From Anaerobacillus sp. CMMVII (lineage in GTDB: Bacteria; Bacillota; Bacilli; Bacillales; Anaerobacillaceae): a DNA stretch of 64,000 nt. The DNA is taken from assembly GCF_025377685.1 (NCBI RefSeq), contig NZ_JACEHK010000009.1:1-64000 (forward strand), in the 5' to 3' direction. Under the pieces are notes generated by a model. The model made no database searches and had not been told where the DNA came from. It saw only the letters and a program-made list of their open reading frames with translations. The translations under genes and the position numbers were made by a program. Shown here piece after piece: positions 1 through 16,807 of this stretch; positions within the stretch are counted from its first letter, which is position 1, and every line of letters starts with the position of its first letter.

Positions 1-202
1 AAAGATATGTTATTTTACTTCATAGGTTGTCAGGGTGATTTTTTAATAAGTTCCTATCTAAGTGATGGGGTTCTGTGGTTTTTTTTCGTGGTGTTGATGT
101 GGTTTTTTGAGTCCTTTAATTATAACATATATTCAGAATATACGTTACTTATAACTATGTTATACTAATGTTAAGTAACATAATAAGTAGGTGATTGATA
201 AA

Positions 203-759
203 ATGGAATTTGTTGAAGCTATTAAAAACCGTCAAAAAATTAATGAAATTAAAGAGATTTTATATCACCGTTCAAAACGAGATTACCTTTTATTACGTTA
301 GGTATTAACACAGGGCTGAAAATAAGCGATATATTAAAACTTAAAACTTCTGAAATTTTGGATCCGGATTCTTCTATTCATGAGTTTTTACTATTAGGTA
401 AAAATGAGACAAGTTTGTTTTATTTAAATGACCAAGTCAAAAAAGCAATTCAGGTGTATATGGAGACCGTTCCTTCCCTGTCTCAGGAAGATTATTTATT
501 TAAATCAAAAAAAGGTGAAAATCCTATTACACGACAACAAGCGTATCGGATCATTAATTCCGTGGCAAAAGAAGTTGGGATTGAAACAAAAATCGGGACA
601 CATACTTTACGTAAAACGTTTGGGTATCATGCCTACCGTGGAGGGGTTGCCGTTTCCTTACTGCAAAAAATCTTTCATCACTCCTCCAAAGGTGAGACGA
701 TGAAATACATAGGGATCGAAAAAGATACTGAGCCTGCAAGAATAGATGTGAATTTATAA
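203..759 (+). pseudogene. Tyrosine recombinase/integrase, frameshifted
   Basis: A small site-specific recombinase of the phage-integrase fold. The ATG at 203 follows a GGTGATTG-type ribosome site. The first frame stops at about 299. Reading resumes one base shifted with TLGINTGLKISDIL and continues to the stop at 757-759. The C-terminal part shows the family landmarks HTLRKTF, IFHHSS and a Tyr in MKYIGI. The position that is usually the first catalytic Arg (TGLRIS) is Lys here. The break is consistent with loss of one T in TTT. About 185 residues is shorter than a full XerC/D, so an N-terminal SAM-like domain is reduced or absent. Its target is unknown. Confidence 0.7.
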
Positions 760-773
760 ATGGTGGTGTACAT

Positions 774-1611
774 ATGAGGATATTACTTAATTACTGCCCT
801 ACTTACAATCGGATCAATTATCGTAGCGATTGGACTAGAATTAATTCTTTCTCCTAACGGTTTAGTTGATGGTGGTGTCACTGCTCTGGCAATTATGGCA
901 AAATCAATATTCAATGTTCCAATTTGGGTTGTATTTATCCTACTAAATATCCCATCGTTACTAATTTCGGGTAAGTTTATGGGAGAAAGTTTGTTGTTAG
1001 GACTTTATATGCCAATGTTGTTACGACCATAACGTTAATTTACTTAACTCCATTTCCTGCGATTACATCATCAGAAGTTTTAATTGTTCTGTACGGTGGG
1101 CTATTGCTCGGATTAGGGATTGGATTAGTTGTAAAAGCTGGCGGAGCAATTGACGGGTCTGAAATGATTGCTACCTGGATAAACAAAAATATGGGATCCC
1201 GATTAGTAATTTTTATTAGGGATTAATGCAATCATATTATCTATGGCAGCAGTCGTTTTTTCTTTAGAAAAGCGATGTTTTCAGTCGCCATCTTTTTTAT
1301 TGTTACGAAGGTGATTGATTTATATTGGACGGTATTAATCAAGGGAAATCAGTGGTGATCATTTCTAGTAAACCTGAGGAAATCGGGCAAAACCTCATTG
1401 AAGAACTAGGCATATCGATTACATACCTAAATGGAACCGGTGGTTATACAGGCGAACCTGTGCAACTGATTTATTGTATAACTGATCGGATGATGTACCC
1501 AAAGCTTAAGAAATTGTTTTAACGCTTGACCCTTCGGCTATTTTAGAAGCATCCTACGTGACAGAAACGACTGGTGTTGAAAAAAACTCATTACTCTGTT
1601 CAAACAAATAA
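774..1611 (+). pseudogene. YitT-family membrane protein, multiply frameshifted
   Basis: Reading across frames recovers a YitT/DUF161 membrane protein. The N-terminal part contains LILSPNGLVDGGVTALAI, the middle VLYGGLLLGLGIG and KAGGAIDGSEMIA, and the C-terminus is a DUF2179 domain (GKSVVIISSKPEEIGQNL, GTGGYTGEP) near 1330-1520. The last conserved segment runs to a TAA at 1609-1611. At least five one-base lesions are needed, several in short G, A or T runs. The family's transport function is not established. It follows the broken integrase directly. A transcript hairpin lies just downstream. Confidence 0.75.
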
Positions 1612-1616
1612 ATAGT

Positions 1617-1660
1617 GAAAAGTCACTTTGAACTTCACATGAAGCTATCAAGTGACTTTT
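1617..1660. terminator. Convergent-gene terminator
   Basis: Inverted repeat AAAAGTCACTT ... AAGTGACTTTT between the yitT remnant (+) and the end of thiY (-). It has A/T runs on both sides, so it could act in both directions. Confidence 0.7.
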
Positions 1661-1676
1661 CTTTTCGATTCTTATA

Positions 1677-2670
1677 TTATTCTACGATATTAACAAAAAT
1701 CTCCTCTAAAGCAGGCTCTTTGTAATTAAGTTAAAATTGAGCATCCACTCAATGGTTTCTTCCCAAGAAGAGGCTTCTTGACTACCGAAACCAGCTGCCG
1801 ACTCCATTTTAGGTAAAAGGATTTCAAGGCTTTGCTTTTCTACTTCTTCCACTAGTGGGAAGTTAGCTTTATCTTGGTGGCTTAATAAAATCGATAGGGC
1901 TTCATCTGGGTTTGCTTTCATGAATTCATAGCCTTTTGTAGCTGCACGCCAGAAGGCTTTAATATCCTTTTGGCGCTCATTCCATGTCTTATCGTTTGTT
2001 ACTACTACTAGCTCATAGAAACTAGGAACGCCGTAATCAACAGGGTTAAAGTATCGTGTCTCATAGCCCTTATGCTTTAAAACAGGAACTTCATGGTTGA
2101 TATAAGCTCCAATCACCCCGTCAACGCGACCAGTTGTCAGTGATGTACCTAATTCAAAACCAACATCAATCATTGTGACGTTGTCAGGGTTTCCACCATC
2201 GGTTTTAATCATTGTCTTTAATAACGCTTCATTTAAGGAATTCCAGGAAAGCCAATTGTTTTTCCTTCAAGATCCTTTGGTGTTTGAACGGTACTTTCTT
2301 CAAGAAAAACTACATGGTTTAAAGGTGAGCGAACAATCGCTCCCACAGCTTTCACTGGGACATCTTGGTTTGCACGGGCGATGACAACATCTGGCTGATA
2401 AGAAATTCCTAATGTAATTTGACCTGCTGCTGCAAGATTAATAGGATCCGTTGGGTTTGCTGGAAATTGAATATTTAGCTTTATTCCCTCTTCTTCAAAA
2501 TAGCCTTTTTCCATTGCTACATACAAATAGCTATGTACTGCATTTGGATACCAATCTAACATTAAATCAACCTCAGCTAATTGATCTTTTCCAGTTGTTG
2601 CTTTCTGACCACATGCCATAAGTACAAACGTTAATAATAAAGCCATGAATAACAAAGAATATTTTTTCAC
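1677..2670 (-). pseudogene. thiY: ThiY, substrate-binding lipoprotein for thiamine pyrimidine, frameshifted
   Basis: NMT1/THI5-type periplasmic-binding lipoprotein. The start at 2670 gives a signal peptide with lipobox LMACGQ, then the family signature MLDWYPNAVHSYLYVA. The frame breaks near 2240 after GKTIGFPGIP, where one T is missing, and resumes with MIKTDGGNPDNVTMIDVGFE. A second shift near 1725 would restore the C-terminal tail KEPALEEIFVNIVE, ending at 1677. It is the last gene of the riboswitch-controlled thiamine operon. In related bacilli ThiY binds formylaminopyrimidine for import by ThiX/ThiZ. Without the two indels the protein would be of normal length. Confidence 0.85.
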
Positions 2671-2692
2671 CCTGTTTTCCTCCAGTGTAAGG

Positions 2693-3419
2693 TCATTTTT
2701 CTAGTAAAACGACGGCTAAAAATAGGCCGATTCCAATAGCTGATAATAAGACAATTGGTGCAAATACACCTGCGCCATCAAATTGAGTCATCATTCGTCG
2801 ACTAAAATAGCCAAGACCACTTTGAGCGCCTAACCATTCGCCAATGGCTGAGCCTATCACGCTTAAGGTAACGGCGACTTTTAATCCGGAATAAAAGAAC
2901 GGTAAAGCAGTAGGAACATTTAACTTAAAAAAGATATCTTTTTTACTAGCTCCCATCGTAAGCATTAAATCTCTCAGTTCTTTGTTACTTGAGCGAAGTC
3001 CATCGAACGTACTAACGGTAATCGGAAAAAAACGTGATAATTAGTGTTACCGCCACTTTACTCCATATTGAATATCCAAACCAAAGAACAAAAATTGGTG
3101 CTAAGGCAATAATCGGAATCGTTTGTGAAGCGACAATAATAGGATAAAATGCTTTCTCTGCTGTTTTATTTACGTTCATCCAGACGGCAATTCCTATACC
3201 TAATAGGATCGATAAGGCGAGACCAACAATAATAATCGAGAGTGTTGCAGGTAAATGAACTAAAAATAATACGCCTCTGAGTTCCCACAGCTTAACGATC
3301 ACCTGGATTGGTGTTGGTAATATAAACGCCAAATCAACAATAATCCCCACTACCTGCCAAATGATCAAGAAGAAAAAACTAATAGGAATGGGTGCAACTG
3401 TTTGATTAACATGCTTCAT
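2693..3419 (-). pseudogene. thiX: ThiX, ABC transporter permease, frameshifted
   Basis: Inner-membrane permease of the BPD_transp_1 family. It has about six hydrophobic segments and the EAA-like loop LRDLMLTMGASKKDIFFKLN. The first frame (3419 to about 3012) ends after ALAPIFVLWFGYSIWSKVAV. One extra T in a seven-T run near 3030 moves the rest into another frame, which reaches 2693. The start overlaps the end of thiZ by 4 bases, so the genes are translationally coupled. It is expected to form the channel of the ThiXYZ importer. Confidence 0.85.
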
Positions 3420-4180
3420 AGTGTCACCTTTGCTCGCAGTTGTTCAATGAGTCTTTCTTTCACTTCAATAACAGCAGGAGCATGAATATCACGAATTGTC
3501 CGTGGACGACCGAGAGGGACGCTCACTTCCACAAAATTTGTTACTGGTTGTTCAGTAAAGATAAAAATACGATCTGATAAAAACAATGCTTCGTCAACAT
3601 CATGAGTAATAAATAAAATTGATAGCTTCCACGTTTCCCATTGAGTCAGTAACCATTCTTGCATCGATAGTCTTGTAATCGCATCTAAGGCACTAAATGG
3701 TTCATCTAACAGTAAAACGTTAGATCCGCTTAAGACAGTTCGTAAGAAGGATATTCTTTGTTTCATCCCTCCGGATAACTCACTTGGATACAAGTGTTCA
3801 ACTCCATTTAAACCGAACTGTTCTAACAGGGTTACTACCCTTTGACTAGCTTCTTGTTTTTTTACCCCTTGGATTTCTAGAGGTAACGAGGCATTTTCAA
3901 GGACCGTTCGCCAAGGCATCAGTAAATCTTGTTGTGGCATATATCCAACCTGGCCTAAGCGACTTTTGTGTGTTTGGCCATTAATAAAAATGTCTCCCTG
4001 TTTTGCTTCTTCAAGACCAGTAATTAATTTGAAGATCGTACTTTTTCCAGAGCCACTAGGACCGATAATGCTAACAAATTCGCCTTCGTCGATATGAAAG
4101 TTTAATTTACTCAAAAGCGTTTTTTGGCCATTTTCATAGGCAAATGATACATCTTCAAACTTTAACGAACACTTAGTCAT
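3416..4180 (-). CDS. thiZ: ThiZ, ABC transporter ATP-binding protein
   Basis: ATPase subunit of the thiamine-pyrimidine importer, about 254 residues. Motifs in order: Walker A GPSGSGKST, Q-loop YMPQQDLLMPW, signature LSGGMKQR, Walker B VLLLDEPFSALD, H-loop FITHD. I chose the ATG at 4180 (MTKCSLKFEDV) because it overlaps the tenA stop by 8 bases; the longer reading frame upstream only shadows tenA. It resembles the SsuB/TauB/ThiZ class. Unlike its neighbours it reads without a break. Confidence 0.88.
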   Translation of the reverse strand: MTKCSLKFEDVSFAYENGQKTLLSKLNFHIDEGEFVSIIGPSGSGKSTIFKLITGLEEAKQGDIFINGQTHKSRLGQVGYMPQQDLLMPWRTVLENASLPLEIQGVKKQEASQRVVTLLEQFGLNGVEHLYPSELSGGMKQRISFLRTVLSGSNVLLLDEPFSALDAITRLSMQEWLLTQWETWKLSILFITHDVDEALFLSDRIFIFTEQPVTNFVEVSVPLGRPRTIRDIHAPAVIEVKERLIEQLRAKVTL

Positions 4181-9341: not shown

Positions 9342-10103
9342 TTATTCATTTAGGGTAACCTTGAATGCAATTGCTTGTAACGTTACTTGATTAAGGAAAT
9401 CTTTTCCGTTTAAACGATAAATGTCGCCTTTTCCCGATGCTTCTTGGAAATTATATACTCGAACGATTTCTGCTTCTTCTTTATATACTTCGATAAATGC
9501 CTTTTCATTTTCAGATAGGTAAAATGGCGTATTCTTTGGTCCTGTCGTTGTTTTGACTTCAAGAAACTTCGGGTTACCATTTGCATCATAAGAAAGAATG
9601 TCGTAGCCAGCGCCGTCCCCTTCTTCGAGAGATACATGAATAACCTTTTCAGCCAATTCAGTATTCAAACTATCTTTTTCATGTTGAAGAACAAACACTT
9701 CACCTTTTAAGCCAATGCTTTTATTTCTAGCATTAATCTCGTCAAAATTTAGTTTTCGGGCTCGAAACTTCCTCTTCTTTTCTTTTCGTTTTTGAATTTC
9801 TTGTTGTTGTTTTTCTTCATAAGGGAAATTCATGACAGTTTTAGATCGTAAAAATCCATTTTTTCCTTTTCGCTCATACTCACAATATTTTAGTAGGTCA
9901 TTATGATCCCGGTGGGAAACCATATTCCGCACCTTTTGTTCAAATTTTGTATCGTTTCTATTTTGATTTATTTCTAAATCATTTCCACTTGGGTTCATTT
10001 CCTCCATTAGTGCTTCTTTCAGCTCAGTAGTCGACATCTCTCCTACTTCCTCTAACATTTTAATGGCCACTGAAAGGATTTCTTTTTCACTGAAGTTACT
10101 CAA
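9342..10103 (-). CDS. DUF3883 nuclease-like protein, probable restriction endonuclease
   Basis: About 253 residues. I prefer the TTG at 10103 (reads LSNFSEKEILSVAIKMLEEV) because GGGGG lies 6 bases upstream; a GTG at 10133 is the alternative. The N-terminal 80 residues look like an Mrr-N-type winged helix. The middle is a very basic linker (KRKEKKRKFRARK). The C-terminal half has the DUF3883/PD-(D/E)XK pattern: GAGYDILSY, then FLEVKTTTG, giving Asp and Glu-x-Lys. It sits 51 bases downstream of an adenine methyltransferase on the same strand, so a type II restriction partner is the natural reading. Specificity cannot be read. Confidence 0.72.
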   Translation of the reverse strand: MSNFSEKEILSVAIKMLEEVGEMSTTELKEALMEEMNPSGNDLEINQNRNDTKFEQKVRNMVSHRDHNDLLKYCEYERKGKNGFLRSKTVMNFPYEEKQQQEIQKRKEKKRKFRARKLNFDEINARNKSIGLKGEVFVLQHEKDSLNTELAEKVIHVSLEEGDGAGYDILSYDANGNPKFLEVKTTTGPKNTPFYLSENEKAFIEVYKEEAEIVRVYNFQEASGKGDIYRLNGKDFLNQVTLQAIAFKVTLNE

Positions 10104-10144
10104 TTCAATTCCCCCTTCGTAAAAAAACTTCACGCAACAATGAC

Positions 10145-10171
10145 TAATTAGTAATTAGTAATTAGTAATTA
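10145..10171. repeat. 7-bp tandem repeat at the methyltransferase 3' end
   Basis: Almost four units of TAATTAG. The repeat encodes the last residues and stop of the methyltransferase (ILITNY), so slippage would change the C-terminus and the spacing to the endonuclease gene. Confidence 0.85.
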
Positions 10172-11282
10172 AAATATGTTCGACCTTTTTATCATTTCGA
10201 TCCATGAAGCTTACACTATATGCCTTGTCAAAGCCGATAATATTAATTCCTGGTTTGTTATAGAGCTGATAGATAAAATCAGTATTTTTTATGATCAGCA
10301 TAAAACGACAGTTGCATTTCGTAAGTAAGTAATTCGCTAGGCGCTCTTGGTCATTACTTGCGAAAGCATTTCCTGCATACGTTGAGAAATCGCTATCGTA
10401 TGGTGGATCTAAAAAGATGAAATCATGTTCATCGATACTAATATTCTCAAAGAACTGTTCAAAATCTAAATTAAATAGGCTTGTCCGATCTAAAATCTCT
10501 TGTAGGCCAGAATTCCAAAGGTATTCGATTTTATTTATGAAGGCTTTGCTATTATAGGATGCACCACCATAGGGAACATTAAAGCCTCCACTTTTGTTAT
10601 AACGAAACATGGATGAGTAACAAAATTCCCTTAGGTAGAAAAATAAAGCGATGTGCAATTCATGGCTAATCTGATATGTCGCTCTTTCATTATATAAATG
10701 ACGATAATACGTATAAACGCTAGCACGAATACTCGCTTCTAGGTTTTTTTGATAATCCTCTTCAGGCAAATCACCTTTCTTTTGTTCGTTATTCCTTGTA
10801 TTGTTGAATTTAGAAAGTATTGATTTTTTCAGCTCTGTGATTAAGACTTCTCGATCAATCCCTAATGTAGCGGGAATGGCAAGCTCAATTTCTGTTCGGG
10901 TTCGGTCCACCAATTGATCGAGTTCTATTTTTAAGTCTTCTTTTGTGATTTCATCGCTTTTGTAACGTCGATATAGTTCTCTTAATTCGTTGTAATGATG
11001 GTCTGAATAGGTTCCGATATAGCACCATAAATCCCAAATGTCTAATAAATATTGTTTAAAATTCTGATTATGCTCTTTAATTAATTTATATAAGGAGATT
11101 AATTCAGTTGAGAAGTCATTCGCAAATGCTTTTTTATATTGTTCTTTTTTTAATGATAAGAGGCAAGCGCCTCCTCCTAAAAAAGGTTCGATATAATTAT
11201 TGATGGTTAGAGGCATGTACTTATGAATGATTTCTAGCTCAGTTGTTTTCCCTCCTGGCCACTTAACAAACGGTTTTACCAA
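10155..11282 (-). CDS. D12-class adenine-N6 DNA methyltransferase (Dam/DpnM-like)
   Basis: Methylates adenine in double-stranded DNA. 375 residues. It begins at TTG 11282 with GGAGGAAAAC upstream. Motif X FVKWPGGK and motif I EPFLGGGACL are near the start, and the catalytic motif IV LDPPYDSDF is near residue 295, the order of the alpha/D12 family. The insert between motifs I and IV is longer than in E. coli Dam and probably contains the target recognition domain. Paired with the DUF3883 gene downstream it would protect host DNA; a GATC-like site is possible but not shown. Confidence 0.9.
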   Translation of the reverse strand: MVKPFVKWPGGKTTELEIIHKYMPLTINNYIEPFLGGGACLLSLKKEQYKKAFANDFSTELISLYKLIKEHNQNFKQYLLDIWDLWCYIGTYSDHHYNELRELYRRYKSDEITKEDLKIELDQLVDRTRTEIELAIPATLGIDREVLITELKKSILSKFNNTRNNEQKKGDLPEEDYQKNLEASIRASVYTYYRHLYNERATYQISHELHIALFFYLREFCYSSMFRYNKSGGFNVPYGGASYNSKAFINKIEYLWNSGLQEILDRTSLFNLDFEQFFENISIDEHDFIFLDPPYDSDFSTYAGNAFASNDQERLANYLLTKCNCRFMLIIKNTDFIYQLYNKPGINIIGFDKAYSVSFMDRNDKKVEHILITNY

Positions 11283-11421: not shown

Positions 11422-12558
11422 TTAATATTGTATAGCAGTTGCTGCTTGCACTAAGCCATAGCCGTATTGACTAGACAGTCCAAGGTTCTTTGATGTCTGT
11501 TGTAGAAGTTGTCGTAATTGTACATTTGTTAAGTTTGGTTTCGCCTCCCAAATAAGCGCTGCAACCCCAGCAACATGTGGTGATGCCATTGATGTTCCAT
11601 TGTAAGAAGCGTAGCTATTGTTTGGAGTAGTACTTAGGATGCTTACACCTGGTGCCGATAGTTCAACAGCTGGACCAGTACTAGAGAAACTAGCGCGTCT
11701 TTCGTTTTGATCAATAGCAGCTACTGCTATAACCGAATTATATTTTGCAGGATAGCCAACGCTATCGTTACGTCCACCGCTGTTACCGCTATTACCAGCT
11801 GCTGCAACTACTAGAATACCTTCCGCGTAAGCAAGATTACAAAATTGTTCTAAAATTGAAGAGCTTGACGATCCGCCTAAACTCATATTAATAATATCCA
11901 TGCCATTTTGGATTGACCATTCAATCCCTTTGGCAATTCCTTCATATGAGCCACTTCCACTATTATTTAATACTTTCACGGCATATAAATCTGCATTCTT
12001 GGCAACACCAACGACACCAAAATCATTGTCAACAGCGGCTACTGTTCCAGCGACATGTGTTCCATGGCCACTACCGTCATAATATGGATCGCTGTTGGCT
12101 GAGTCCGTAAATACAGAAAAACCGCCTTTTACATTGGCATTTAAATCTGGATGACTTCTGTCGATACCTGTATCTAGAATGGCAACCTTCAGTCCATTTC
12201 CAGTATATCCAAGATTATTTGCTTCTGGGGTTTGAACCTTTGGAACACCCCAAGGAATGGTTTGCCCAAGTGCTTGAACTGCTGCATTTTTTTCTACACC
12301 TTTGATCTTGGGATGATTTGCTAACCCTTTTGCTTGTTGCTCAGTTAGTTTTAATGAGACGACTGAAAGAAGTGTAAAAGTGTGTAAAACTTCATTATTA
12401 CTTACGCCAAATGCTTTAAGTATACCTCTTTCAACATTCCCATCAAATTGAACTAAGTATTCGTCTGTAGTTGCATCGTTTGCAAAAATCGTTGCTGAAG
12501 GGAACATCATTCCAAACAACAAAACCATCGCAAACAATACGGACAATAACTTTTTCAT
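11422..12558 (-). CDS. Secreted subtilisin-like serine protease
   Basis: S8 family alkaline-type protease of 378 residues. Start ATG 12558 (MKKLLSVLFAM) has AGGAGG 7 bases upstream. A Sec signal peptide ends near ATIFA. The inhibitor propeptide carries EYLVQFDG and IKGVEKNAAVQA, and the mature enzyme begins near QTIPWGVPKVQ. The catalytic triad is complete: Asp in AILDTGIDRSH, His in GHGTHVAGT, Ser in NGTSMASPHVAG, plus the oxyanion Asn in AAAGNSG. It is monocistronic. A 14-bp palindrome lies 150 bases upstream, and a TACAAT -10 box (12598-12603) without a good -35 suggests activator dependence. It is the likely output of the adjacent PlcR-like regulator. Confidence 0.93.
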   Translation of the reverse strand: MKKLLSVLFAMVLLFGMMFPSATIFANDATTDEYLVQFDGNVERGILKAFGVSNNEVLHTFTLLSVVSLKLTEQQAKGLANHPKIKGVEKNAAVQALGQTIPWGVPKVQTPEANNLGYTGNGLKVAILDTGIDRSHPDLNANVKGGFSVFTDSANSDPYYDGSGHGTHVAGTVAAVDNDFGVVGVAKNADLYAVKVLNNSGSGSYEGIAKGIEWSIQNGMDIINMSLGGSSSSSILEQFCNLAYAEGILVVAAAGNSGNSGGRNDSVGYPAKYNSVIAVAAIDQNERRASFSSTGPAVELSAPGVSILSTTPNNSYASYNGTSMASPHVAGVAALIWEAKPNLTNVQLRQLLQQTSKNLGLSSQYGYGLVQAATAIQY

Positions 12559-12708
12559 CTTATGACCTCCTGTGTTATGTTTTGGTGTTACAACCTTATT
12601 GTAATTCGAATATTTCAAAAATTAAAAATTCGTTTCGCCTGTTAATAGGAGCTATTTTGCTAAATTAAGAGGATTAAACAATAAATAAAAGTAATATCGT
12701 ACAAAACG

Positions 12709-12722
12709 ATAACTATAGTTAT
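12709..12722. promoter_or_regulatory. Palindromic operator upstream of the subtilisin gene
   Basis: Perfect palindrome ATAACTATAGTTAT, identical to the one at 13050-13063. It is 150 bases from the protease ATG and about 105 bases upstream of its -10 box. PlcR boxes in the B. cereus group are also palindromic and lie at variable distance upstream. I infer it is the binding site of the neighbouring regulator. Confidence 0.65.
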
Positions 12723-12738
12723 TACAGGACAAAAATGA

Positions 12739-12767
12739 AAAAAGCAAAGTAGCATTAGCTACCTTGC
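12739..12767 (-). terminator. Terminator of the signal-peptide gene
   Basis: Stem AAGCAAAGTAGC / GCTACCTTGCTT (one mismatch) followed on the minus strand by TTTTTTC. It ends the short transcript of the papR-like gene before the protease promoter region. Confidence 0.8.
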
Positions 12768-12788
12768 TTTTCTTGAAACGTTAAGTAT

Positions 12789-12902
12789 TTATACTTCATG
12801 AGGCAAGTCTGTTGGTGTAACATCATTTGCTGCAAAAGTCGTAAGTGCTGCTCCTGTAAATAACAAATTTAAAGCAAAAAAACAAAATAGGACTTTTTTC
12901 AT
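12789..12902 (-). CDS. PapR-like secreted signalling pre-peptide (37 aa)
   Basis: ATG 12902 has AGGTGATC upstream. The peptide has a Lys-rich start (MKKVLFCFF), a hydrophobic core and a Sec cleavage site near TTFAA, leaving NDVTPTDLPHEV. The last seven residues TDLPHEV resemble the PapR pheromones that activate PlcR, which are of the form xDLPFEx. The architecture (export, C-terminal trimming, re-import as a heptapeptide) is that of RRNPP pheromones. The gene is divergent from the PlcR-like regulator at 13075, whereas papR lies downstream of plcR in B. cereus. A TATAAT -10 box (complement at 12941-12946) is 40 bases upstream, with a poor -35. Confidence 0.78.
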   Translation of the reverse strand: MKKVLFCFFALNLLFTGAALTTFAANDVTPTDLPHEV

Positions 12903-13049
12903 AGGGATCACCTGCCTGTTTAAGTATTGGTTTTTCTGTTATTATACTATCAACCGCAAGTTTTTAAATTTTAAAAATATTCATTTAAGTTAATATTGCC
13001 CATAATAAACCGAGGAATCTTCTATTATCATGACAGGATGAAACTAAAA

Positions 13050-13063
13050 ATAACTATAGTTAT
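13050..13063. promoter_or_regulatory. Palindromic operator between the peptide and regulator genes
   Basis: Second perfect copy of ATAACTATAGTTAT. It is 147 bases from the papR-like ATG, nearly the spacing seen at the protease. On the other side it abuts the regulator's ribosome site (CGGAGGT at 13064-13070), so it could also give autoregulation. Confidence 0.65.
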
Positions 13064-13074
13064 CGGAGGTCAAA

Positions 13075-13958
13075 ATGAACTTAAAAGAATTTAGTAACGA
13101 ACTCGCTTGGTTAAGAACGAAAAAAGGCTTATCTCAAAAGAGTTAGCCAAAGGAATTTGTACTCAACCTGCCATTAGTAAAATTGAAAAAGGTGAAGTTT
13201 GTCCGCAACTAGATACCTTATATATGCTCGCTTTAAAATTGAAGGTGCCTCTTTCGTATTTTATTAATATTTTACTTTTTGAAAATAAGGATTACATTGA
13301 TCAAACTGTTACTTACATTGAGGAACTAACTTCACGCCACCAATACCAAGAAGCGTATCACTTAGTGAAGGCGGAACTAAAAACGAAAAACCAAGATCCT
13401 TGGTTTCACTCTTACTTGACTTGGCAACAATACTATAATGGCTATCAATTAAACTATTATCATGCCGATGAATGTTTAGATGATTTAAAGAAATTGTTAA
13501 AAAATCAAACGATTATTATGGAACGATTTCTAGATTTGAAGATCATTAATACGATTGGAACCATCTATTCTAATCTAGGAAAATATAAAGAGAGTTTGTT
13601 TTATTATGAAAAAATACTCAGTAATTATAATGGCAAGTATATAAATCCTATTTTAGAAAGTAAGAACATTTATATATTAAGAGTCATTTACAATAAAGCT
13701 AAAACACTATATGATGCTGGTGATTATCAGGTAGCGGTTGAAACGGTTAAAGAGGGAATTCGATTATCAATTAAAAATCATAATATGTCTTTATTAGGCC
13801 AGCTTTACTATTATCAAGGACAATGTTATGAAAAAATGACCTACAATCGAGATGAAATTAAACATTCCTACCAGCAATCGCTTTATTTCTTTGAATTACT
13901 TGAGAATTATACGTATGTAGAAATTATTAAGAAGCTTAAAAAGGAATTTCTTGAGTAG
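13075..13958 (+). pseudogene. PlcR-like RRNPP quorum-sensing regulator, one-base frameshift
   Basis: HTH plus TPR transcription factor of about 294 residues after correction. It opens with MNLKEFSNELAWLRTKKGLS, then QKELAKGICTQPAISKIEKG completes an Xre-type HTH. The remainder is a PlcR-type TPR domain with NTIGTIYSNLGKYKESLFYY, YNKAKTLYDAGDYQVAVE and MSLLGQLYYYQGQCYEKM. The last block closely resembles the end of B. cereus PlcR. The frame breaks at 13136-13139, where AAAA replaces the AAAAA needed for CAA AAA GAG. The break falls in the HTH, so if real the regulator is dead; a sequencing error is more likely. It should bind the TDLPHEV-type peptide and the palindromes nearby. Confidence 0.82.
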
Positions 13959-13999: not shown

Positions 14000-15121
14000 C
14001 TACGCTTCATGAGCATTTTGTAAAACTACTGTTTCTTCAGTTTGAGCTTGTACATTTGGTGTAGTGGCAATGGCTAAAATAATGGCGCTAAAACCACCTA
14101 CAAATTTACCAATTATCATAGCAAAGACAATGTCTGGTTGTACTCCTGCGACAAAACCTAAGTGACTACCGAAAACGAACGCACCACTAACGGCGAACGC
14201 AACATTTATTACTTTCCCTCTTGGTTCCATGTCTTTTAAAATGGTAAACATTGGAATACTGTGGGCTAAAGACGCAACTAGTCCTGTCGTAGACGTTTCG
14301 CTTATCCCTACTAAAGAACCCAGTTTTATCAGTGGCTTCTTAAATAATTTCGAAATGAGTGCGACCATCGGGAACGCTCCTGCTAGAAAAATGGCTATCA
14401 TAGCGACAATTTTCATTCCTTCATCTAAAGGTGTCAGATTTGGAATAATGGTTATGTTGGTGAACGTTTCCACAACAATGGCAATTAATCCGATAAGTGC
14501 TAAGATTTCTACCCCTTTTGCAAAAACGGAAAATCCGGATATCATTTTTTCTGGCTTAATCCATAAACCTACGGAAATAAGAATCGAAAAAAGAATTGTT
14601 GGAATTAGGTTCAAAAGAATCATCATAATTGGAAGGTTTGCTACAATTCCTCCAACAAAACAACCGAGGGGAACAGTAATCAATCCTAATAGAATGCCTT
14701 TAGCAAAATATTTGTGGTCTTCTTTTTCAATAATACCTAAGGCTACCGGAATCGTAAAAACAATTGTTGGCCCCATCATCGTTCCTAAAAACACCCATGC
14801 AAACAAAGCCGCCTCAGGAGTATTAGCCATTTCCTCGGCTAAGGCGTAGCCACCCATATCAATCGCCAAAATGGTATTTGCAAATACTGCAGGGTCAGCA
14901 CCAACTAACCCGTAAACTGGAGCGATCACCGGTGTTAGTATACTTGCGAGCACTGGAGATAAGGAAATAATTCCAACCATTGCTAACGTTAAAGAGCCCA
15001 TCGTCATAAATCCATCTGTAAATCGGCCAGCAAGACCTAGTTTATTTCCTATGATTTTGTCGATAGCGCCAAGACAAAAACAACCAATCACGATAAAGAC
15101 GATTACTTCATTAATACTCAT
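14000..15121 (-). CDS. eutH: EutH-family ethanolamine transporter
   Basis: 373 residues, about ten to eleven membrane helices. Family signatures include AIDMGGYALAEEMA near residue 87, GTMMGPTIVFTIPVALG and a C-terminal GSHLGFVAGVQPDIV. EutH moves ethanolamine into the cell. No other eut genes are present, so it stands alone. The start ATG 15121 has only a weak ribosome site. Its 3' end converges with the PlcR-like gene across an imperfect hairpin near 13967-14003. Confidence 0.9.
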   Translation of the reverse strand: MSINEVIVFIVIGCFCLGAIDKIIGNKLGLAGRFTDGFMTMGSLTLAMVGIISLSPVLASILTPVIAPVYGLVGADPAVFANTILAIDMGGYALAEEMANTPEAALFAWVFLGTMMGPTIVFTIPVALGIIEKEDHKYFAKGILLGLITVPLGCFVGGIVANLPIMMILLNLIPTILFSILISVGLWIKPEKMISGFSVFAKGVEILALIGLIAIVVETFTNITIIPNLTPLDEGMKIVAMIAIFLAGAFPMVALISKLFKKPLIKLGSLVGISETSTTGLVASLAHSIPMFTILKDMEPRGKVINVAFAVSGAFVFGSHLGFVAGVQPDIVFAMIIGKFVGGFSAIILAIATTPNVQAQTEETVVLQNAHEA

Positions 15122-15965: not shown

Positions 15966-16807
15966 TTATTTTAAGATTGATTCTTTCGACTCAACTAATT
16001 CACGATTAATATTCTTACCATAATATAATTCATCCATTTCTAGCTTCAAACGTGCGGTAATCTCTTCCTGCTCTTCAATACTAAGTGTATCTTTTTTATA
16101 ACCAAAAAGATAATTATTTAGATCAAAGTTCTTTAGTTTACATTTTGTATGGAAGATGTTTTCTTGATAGATGTTCACATCAATCATATCGAACTGATCT
16201 TTTACTTCACTAGGAATGTAGTTTGAATTGAGTTGATATCATGATCAATGAATAGCTTGTGCCCATTAATATCTCTCGTGAAACCGCGGACGCGGTAGTC
16301 CATCGTCATAATGTCTGTATCAAATGAGTGGATTAGATAGTTTAGTGCTTTTAAAGGTGAGATTTCCCCACATGTTGATACGTCGATATCAGCTCGAAAC
16401 GTACTGATCCCTTCATCTGGATGGTATTCAGGATAGGTATGAACAGTTATATGACTTTTATCTAAATGAGCAAGAACCGTTTCTGGAAGCGGCCCTGGAG
16501 ATTCTTTAAAAAAGCCTTGTGGAGCGTTATTTACGGGACCTTCTGAAACTAATATCGTTACACTCGCGCCCTGAGGATCATAATCTTGTTTAGCGATATT
16601 CAATACGTGTGCACCAATAATACTCGTAACATCTGTTAGGATCTTTGTTAAACGATCAGCATTATATTGTTCATCTATATATTCTATATAAGCTTCTCGC
16701 TCTTCTTTTGTTTTTGTATAACAAATGTCGTACATATTAAAACTTAATGACTTCGTTAGATTATTAAACCCATGTAATTGAATACGCTGTTCTGGCGTTA
16801 GTTTCAT
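15966..16807 (-). pseudogene. speD: S-adenosylmethionine decarboxylase proenzyme, frameshifted
   Basis: Class 1A (E. coli-type, long) SpeD. It makes decarboxylated SAM for spermidine synthesis. Start 16807 ([20 protein letters not shown]). The self-cleavage and pyruvoyl site is in [13 protein letters not shown]. One base is missing near 16218, after DHDINSIQT; the other frame continues [19 protein letters not shown] to 15966. B. subtilis has the short SpeD, but many bacilli carry this longer form. No spermidine synthase is adjacent. Confidence 0.88.

Follow-up and report, generated by a model that had tools for sequence, protein, structure and literature searches.

A probable local PlcR-type quorum-sensing module in Anaerobacillus, with TDLPHEV as candidate pheromone and a subtilisin as its likely target

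To our knowledge, the PlcR/PapR pair of receptor and peptide pheromone has been studied almost only as the virulence switch of Bacillus cereus. In that species papR lies downstream of plcR on the same strand, and PlcR is autoinducing. According to the passages of the cited sources that deal with them, the B. cereus regulon comprises 28 PlcR boxes (TATGNAN4TNCATA) and 45 genes (PMC2464732), the pheromone glutamate is contacted by Lys89, Gln237 and Tyr275 of PlcR (PMC6568020), and the PlcR-controlled NprB helps to mature PapR (PMC4701985). Bacillales pheromones are said in PMC9765709 to be encoded immediately downstream of the receptor, and in a passage of PMC11343458 to be encoded downstream or upstream. 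The locus described here lies in a 64,000-nucleotide stretch (the window) of Anaerobacillus sp. CMMVII, contig NZ_JACEHK010000009.1, where three genes are found between 11422 and 13958: a subtilisin and a 37-amino-acid peptide, both on the minus strand, and, on the plus strand, a regulator with a helix-turn-helix (HTH) and tetratricopeptide repeats (TPR).

From its sequence, this locus is quite probably a local PlcR-type peptide quorum-sensing module, with TDLPHEV as the candidate pheromone and the subtilisin as the likely target. It would not be the B. cereus PlcR/PapR system itself, since the gene order and the operator sequence differ. The features on which this reading draws are as follows, with distances in base pairs (bp).

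11422..12558, minus strand: secreted subtilisin, Peptidase_S8 with I9 propeptide (Pfam); a copy 80-81% identical sits in the same place in two other species.
12709..12722, no strand assigned: second copy of the palindrome ATAACTATAGTTAT, placed 151 bp before the subtilisin's start codon; a single base differs in either of the other two species.
12738..12773, minus strand: terminator-like hairpin 3' of the peptide gene, between it and the subtilisin; two terminator-like sites in the region against 0.1 expected.
12789..12902, minus strand: predicted PapR-type pheromone precursor of 37 residues, C-terminus TDLPHEV; homologues, and purifying selection on the last 10 codons.
12792..12812, minus strand: codons of the predicted heptapeptide TDLPHEV, the mature form being proposed by analogy with PapR7 (ADLPFEF, in the part of PMC6568020 on the pheromone).
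12941..12968, minus strand: TTTAAA-16-TATAAT, a promoter-like site that would serve the peptide gene; three species share an identical -10 block.
13050..13063, no strand assigned: palindrome ATAACTATAGTTAT, the proposed operator at the regulator; exact in all three species.
13075..13958, plus strand: PlcR-type regulator gene (HTH and TPR), ATG at 13075, open frame 13107-13958; Pfam, phmmer, fold search and orthologues.

Promoter-like sites across the region are not more numerous than chance would give.

The regulator matches RNPP_C (3e-47) and HTH_3 (2.7e-8) in Pfam, as does an intact orthologue, and no other RNPP_C match at E 1e-3 exists in the window's own genome (G000, 4.87 Mb; the other six of the seven genus genomes are labelled G001 to G006). 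Its best match among solved structures in a phmmer search was PlcR (2qfc, E 4.8e-40), the runner-up standing at 1.3e-6. An AlphaFold2 model made from a three-sequence input (predicted local distance difference test, pLDDT, 80; predicted template modelling score, pTM, 0.73) was then used in a fold search, in which the top five chains were all PlcR of B. thuringiensis (E 7e-12 to 9e-10), followed by generic TPR proteins from 4.5e-4. The sequence and the model thus confirmed a predicted PlcR-type receptor with an N-terminal HTH and a C-terminal RNPP-type TPR domain, and the resemblance to PlcR claimed in an earlier note on this DNA was found by sequence and fold alike.

The peptide gene has a strong ribosome site, and a hydropathy filter of our own gives its product a KK-hydrophobic, signal-like N-terminus that signal peptidase would likely cut after TFA. 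Homologues with 70-73% identity (E about 1e-10) were found in two other species of the genus, with the C-termini TDLPHEV and ADLPHEV, and the 37-residue peptide gene divergent from an HTH-TPR gene, as first noted, is confirmed. Per species pair, synonymous changes in the last 10 codons number 3 to 6 and non-synonymous ones 0 to 1, a count by which these codons are under purifying selection. TDLPHEV is the candidate pheromone at this conserved end, its mature form being taken from the likeness to PapR. The earlier note had proposed a new pherotype, and DLPHEV indeed did not occur in the literature library searched, although DLPHE is not unique: DLPHEF, followed by six further residues, is present at L007 (Bacillus sp. 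CH30_1T) and L008 (Rossellomorea sp. SC111), L labels being used here for regulator loci.

Regulator, peptide and subtilisin lie in the same order in three of the seven genus genomes, G000, G002 and G004, with the copies in the latter two being 74-75%, 70-73% and 80-81% identical to the window's, respectively. G003 holds a diverged set, in which the regulator is 43% identical, the divergent peptide gene encodes the end NDLPYEV and the subtilisin, close to the end of a contig, is 66% identical. In G001, G005 and G006 the regulator found no match, the peptide none below E 0.1, and subtilisins reach 48% at most; G005 is only 62% complete.

Relatives of the regulator at E 1e-3 or better were found in 200 of 397 genomes across the order, and 81 loci were taken, consisting of 13 from the genus search, 66 order-wide and L007 and L008. 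The tree (82 rows, a quick method with support from the Shimodaira-Hasegawa-like approximate likelihood ratio test, SH-aLRT, only, and without NprR, TprA or Rgg rows) placed the window regulator in a 24-row clade (clade A, support 95) next to an 18-row set with PlcR (87), the two joining at a node of 100; the other 40 rows have xLPxxH and other peptides, or none recognised. The window regulator therefore appears in this tree as a PlcR-type sister lineage rather than as a demonstrated orthologue of B. cereus PlcR, the relationship suggested in the earlier note.

In the 800-bp flanks, open reading frames (ORFs) ending DLPxE or DLPxEx were found at 17 of 79 regulator loci, whereas none of 20 shuffled sets had any. 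Peptides belonging to a recognised class were picked at 56 of 80 distinct loci, 46 of them divergent, 6 convergent, 3 downstream and co-directional, and one mis-picked (L097, where a second candidate is divergent); 24 of the 80 had no recognised peptide. Within clade A a DLPxE-type peptide is present at 18 of 23 distinct loci (17 divergent, one downstream; two loose, DSPYEA and DLKHEY). Because 17 of these 18 genes are divergent, divergence is judged to be the rule, the common state among relatives rather than an oddity. This differs from the immediately downstream position given in the passage of PMC9765709 cited above. The earlier note had held the divergent order to be distinctive, which it is not, since most relatives share it and B. 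cereus is the departure; it would also have abandoned its PlcR/PapR reading had relatives lacked the peptide gene or its DLPxE end varied among the neighbours' homologues, and in clade A the gene is mostly there and the pattern is conserved. Two precursors, at L037 and L040, contain two DLPYED copies each.

Receptor and peptide also vary together. Position 237, in PlcR numbering, is Q in 16, N in 8 and L in 1 of 25 DLPxE rows, and E in 11, S in 6, D in 3 and H in 1 of 21 xLPxxH rows, which have no Q or N; position 275 is Tyr in 23 of the 25 and Phe in 13 of the 21. The peptide classes are our own patterns, the DLPxE rows include PlcR and the duplicate L008, and relatedness among the rows means that the counts do not stand for independent events; with that in mind, residue 237 appears to vary with peptide class. 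A His at peptide position 5 is common to the window, L007, L008 and L032, with the latter three being in another branch. Might the exported peptide be some other small secreted protein, and no pheromone of this regulator? Its size and signal sequence are generic and its mature form is a prediction, yet across genera the conservation of its C-terminal motif tracks the receptor and the receptor's glutamate-reading residues, and within the genus the peptide appears at E <0.1 only in the three genomes that have an orthologous regulator. The possibility was accordingly judged very improbable. In the PlcR half of the tree, L047, L048 and L049 have a precursor end DPGIGWRY, with Pro at 237 and His at 275.

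The proposed operator, ATAACTATAGTTAT, is a 14-bp palindrome whose copy at 13050-13063 abuts the ribosome-binding site of the regulator. G000 contains exactly two perfect copies, both in this locus, upstream of the regulator and upstream of the subtilisin, and G004 and G002 contain one each, both at the regulator, where the sequence is exact in three species amid otherwise diverged DNA; the subtilisin-side copy is changed by one base in each of these two genomes. Shuffled windows contained a mean of 0.00 exact copies. It shares the PlcR-box layout of two 6-bp arms around 4 bp (6-4-6) but has a different half-site. Just before the regulator ribosome site, in the PlcR half of the tree, TATAACTTTTGTTATA is found at L044, and the PlcR-box consensus fits at L042 and L043. 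Three fixed patterns sought within 330 bp upstream of the 81 loci were found at 2, 4 and 2 of them, where shuffled sequence gave means of 0.06, 0.04 and 0; three of the 4 and one of the last 2 belong to the window's own genus, from which the pattern was drawn. The idea that perfect palindromes are generally over-represented upstream of the regulators of clade A or clade B was rejected (1 of 22 and 2 of 17, within shuffle range).

The canonical box TATGNAN4TNCATA does not occur in the window or on contig C9. Genome-wide, its matches numbered 9 against 5 in the reversed control in G000, 12 against 7 in G002 and 10 against 2 in G004, somewhat above control in all three, although G000 has no other RNPP_C gene.

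The subtilisin itself is secure (Peptidase_S8 3.6e-74, with the I9 propeptide match), and the secreted protease of the earlier note is present, though outside the interval 12558-13958 given there except for its first base. A homologue lies within 1.5 kb at 17 of the 81 loci, always on the 5' side of the regulator, on the opposite strand in 15 and on the same strand in two (L034, L087); several of the 17 are closely related, so that the independent cases are fewer. An eighteenth homologue, at L007, stands on the 3' side at a distance of more than 3 kb. For comparison, 42 control loci were drawn from the genus, two of which were left out as being the G004 module itself by 80% identity, and 1 of the remaining 40 had a subtilisin hit. 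At L028, L029, L037 and L039 a gap of only about 23 to 45 bp separates the end of the peptide gene from the subtilisin, an operon-like arrangement. The conserved shared palindrome and the linkage support the subtilisin as the most likely target of the module. The control of a protease foreseen in the earlier note is thus favoured by the same two lines of evidence, albeit through a proposed operator that is not the B. cereus PlcR box.

A further alternative is that the pheromone-receptor pair is real while some other transcription factor binds the palindromes and the subtilisin is a mere neighbour. In its favour, the palindrome is a short A+T-rich sequence, and a box of this kind is missing ahead of the regulator at most other clade-A loci. 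However, the exact 14-mers in three genomes are confined to the module, the 6-4-6 layout recurs in the same place before related regulators (two PlcR-box fits and one TATAACN4GTTATA among them), and the subtilisin linkage recurs in distant branches. This alternative was therefore considered improbable, and a palindrome read by the PlcR-type regulator is preferred.

A number of observations nevertheless weigh against a PlcR-type module of this kind. The fold alignment to PlcR has a root-mean-square deviation of 10-12 A and a template modelling (TM) score of about 0.7. Position 89 is His in the window's clade, not the Lys of PlcR, and the co-variation at 237 has exceptions in L046 (Leu) and in L087, where ELPSEH accompanies Glu. 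Five of the 23 clade-A loci have no recognisable peptide, including L035, a close relative of the DLPHEF loci, and outside the genus the majority of clade-A regulators are not preceded by a palindrome (a perfect one at 1 of 22 loci, within shuffle range). With up to two mismatches, ATAACTATAGTTAT is not enriched in G000 (63 vs 107 in the reversed control), and the same pattern in the regulator-less G006 gave 102 vs 101. ATAACN4GTTAT is likewise not enriched in G000 (11 vs 18) or G002 (3 vs 20); it is above control in G004 (24 vs 9), where ten of the 24 are one repeated 14-mer. The subtilisin-side palindrome stands 151 bp from the start codon, so that it would not necessarily serve the subtilisin promoter. 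Finally, the frame of the regulator is broken in this assembly, within the HTH, between about 13130 and 13150.

The repeated 14-mer deserves a word of its own, as ATAACAGAGGTTAT or its complement recurs at ten places in G004 contig C1 and is absent from the G000 and G002 sites; it is perhaps a repeat element. Five of the nine other ATAACN4GTTAT sites in G000 lie inside ORFs, and none of the nine stands before an evident secreted protease, judged by the printed starts of the neighbours. A wide ATAACTATAGTTAT regulon in G000 was rejected, with 5 copies of the 12-mer against 6 in the control and looser patterns below control. The regulon in G000 seems smaller and confined to the module, a statement that applies to this genome and is not extended to the genus.

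The frame break, which bears out the earlier note's call for a corrected regulator, could mean that in this strain the regulator has become a true pseudogene which no longer controls peptide and subtilisin, and the position of the break near the gene start, in the HTH, fits such a loss. Nevertheless, among 49 matches to proteins of two related genomes there are 9 that run across two frames of the window. They fall in six of its other genes, including those for S-adenosylmethionine decarboxylase, for an NMT1-type binding protein and for a transporter permease, and suggest a region of error-rich assembly. These two-frame genes sit at positions 200-3420, at position 16223 and at 21.5-21.9 kb. Downstream of the break the open frame has no internal stop, the non-synonymous divergence (Ka) to the two relatives is 0.16-0.18 against a synonymous divergence (Ks) of 1.68 in one pair and saturation in the other, and the window's branch is the shortest of the three genus orthologues (0.089 vs 0.14 and 0.13). 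The frame is intact in the orthologues of the two related species. Since six other window genes were also matched in two frames, the break is most likely an assembly error, and a pseudogene is an unlikely explanation.

With an intact regulator, the module might work as follows. The precursor would be exported and trimmed to TDLPHEV or a slightly longer form, which at high cell density would be re-imported and bind the TPR groove, where the residues corresponding to PlcR 89, 237 and 275 (His, Gln and Tyr in this receptor) would read its glutamate. The loaded receptor would bind ATAACTATAGTTAT and most likely activate the subtilisin gene, as well as tune its own expression. At the regulator box, autorepression or an action on the divergent peptide promoter would be likelier than autoinduction, because the operator abuts the ribosome-binding site and leaves no room for a promoter between them, except if the palindrome, which contains TATAGT, itself overlaps a promoter. 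Because the PlcR-controlled NprB helps to mature PapR in B. cereus (the pertinent passage of PMC4701985), the subtilisin may likewise act on the pheromone and so be both the output of the module and a pheromone-maturing protease.

A broader scenario can be put forward tentatively, though it strikes us as more doubtful than probable. The ancestral PlcR system of Bacillales may have been a small, self-contained unit of receptor, divergent DLPxE pheromone and subtilisin, the latter as output and maturing enzyme, with residue 237 determining which residue can stand at pheromone position 6. On this view PlcR of B. cereus, with papR moved downstream, would owe its global virulence regulon to a later expansion. 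Irrespective of that history, the locus offers a compact relative of PlcR/PapR outside the B. cereus group: its operator is predicted, its candidate pheromone is defined and a single target stands out. The survey adds dozens of natural receptor-peptide pairs for reading and testing the recognition code. The recurrent linkage suggests that industrially interesting subtilisins are under pheromone control in several Bacillales lineages.

What appears to be new here is the shared 14-bp palindrome, the recurrent subtilisin linkage (17 of 81 loci) and the co-variation of residue 237 with peptide class. Among the best-ranked literature matches, no title concerned a PlcR/PapR-type module with a subtilisin, an alkaline protease or divergent transcription, and the words 'subtilisin' and 'protease' are absent from the main texts of the surveys PMC10075063 and PMC12700828. 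Divergent PlcR-type pairs may well be counted in these surveys, whose figures show gene orientation.

The module has neighbours on both sides. Adjoining the subtilisin, at 9342-11282, are a Dam-type adenine methyltransferase and a NOV_C-domain protein, both kept in G004 and the methyltransferase also in G002, which are possibly a restriction or defence remnant. On the other side, at 14000-15121 and convergent to the regulator, is a EutH-family gene with 79-81% identity in both related species.

How, then, does the locus compare with described systems and with its nearest relatives? The loci L007 and L008 share with it a clade-A receptor and a divergent peptide with DLPHE, but their heptapeptide is followed by further residues, no subtilisin adjoins, and a bacteriocin-type ATP-binding cassette (ABC) exporter with a C39 peptidase, at about 870-3980 of those loci, stands beside the receptor and peptide. 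A small ORF next to that exporter has an apparent double-glycine leader. PlcRa/PapRa of B. cereus, as described in part of PMC3519770, resembles the window in having a PlcR-type receptor with the gene for a small exported precursor upstream, yet PapRa7 is CSIPYEY, internal to a 93-residue precursor, and the same part of that source reports finding no palindrome before PlcRa targets. With PlcR/PapR of B. cereus itself the locus has in common an HTH and TPR receptor, a short, predicted exported precursor with a DLPxE(x) end, a palindromic 6-4-6 operator (predicted here), a link to a secreted protease (NprB in B. cereus) and the groove residues aligned to N159, N201, K204, Q237 and Y275. It differs in that its regulator belongs to a separate sister clade, its peptide gene is divergent and upstream rather than downstream, and its peptide has His at position 5 and Val at the end, facing a receptor with His at 89. 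Its half-site is ATAAC in place of TATGNA, and the predicted operator touches the ribosome-binding site and is seemingly confined, in G000, to a single module, compared with the 28 boxes and 45 genes listed for B. cereus in the section of PMC2464732 on the regulon.

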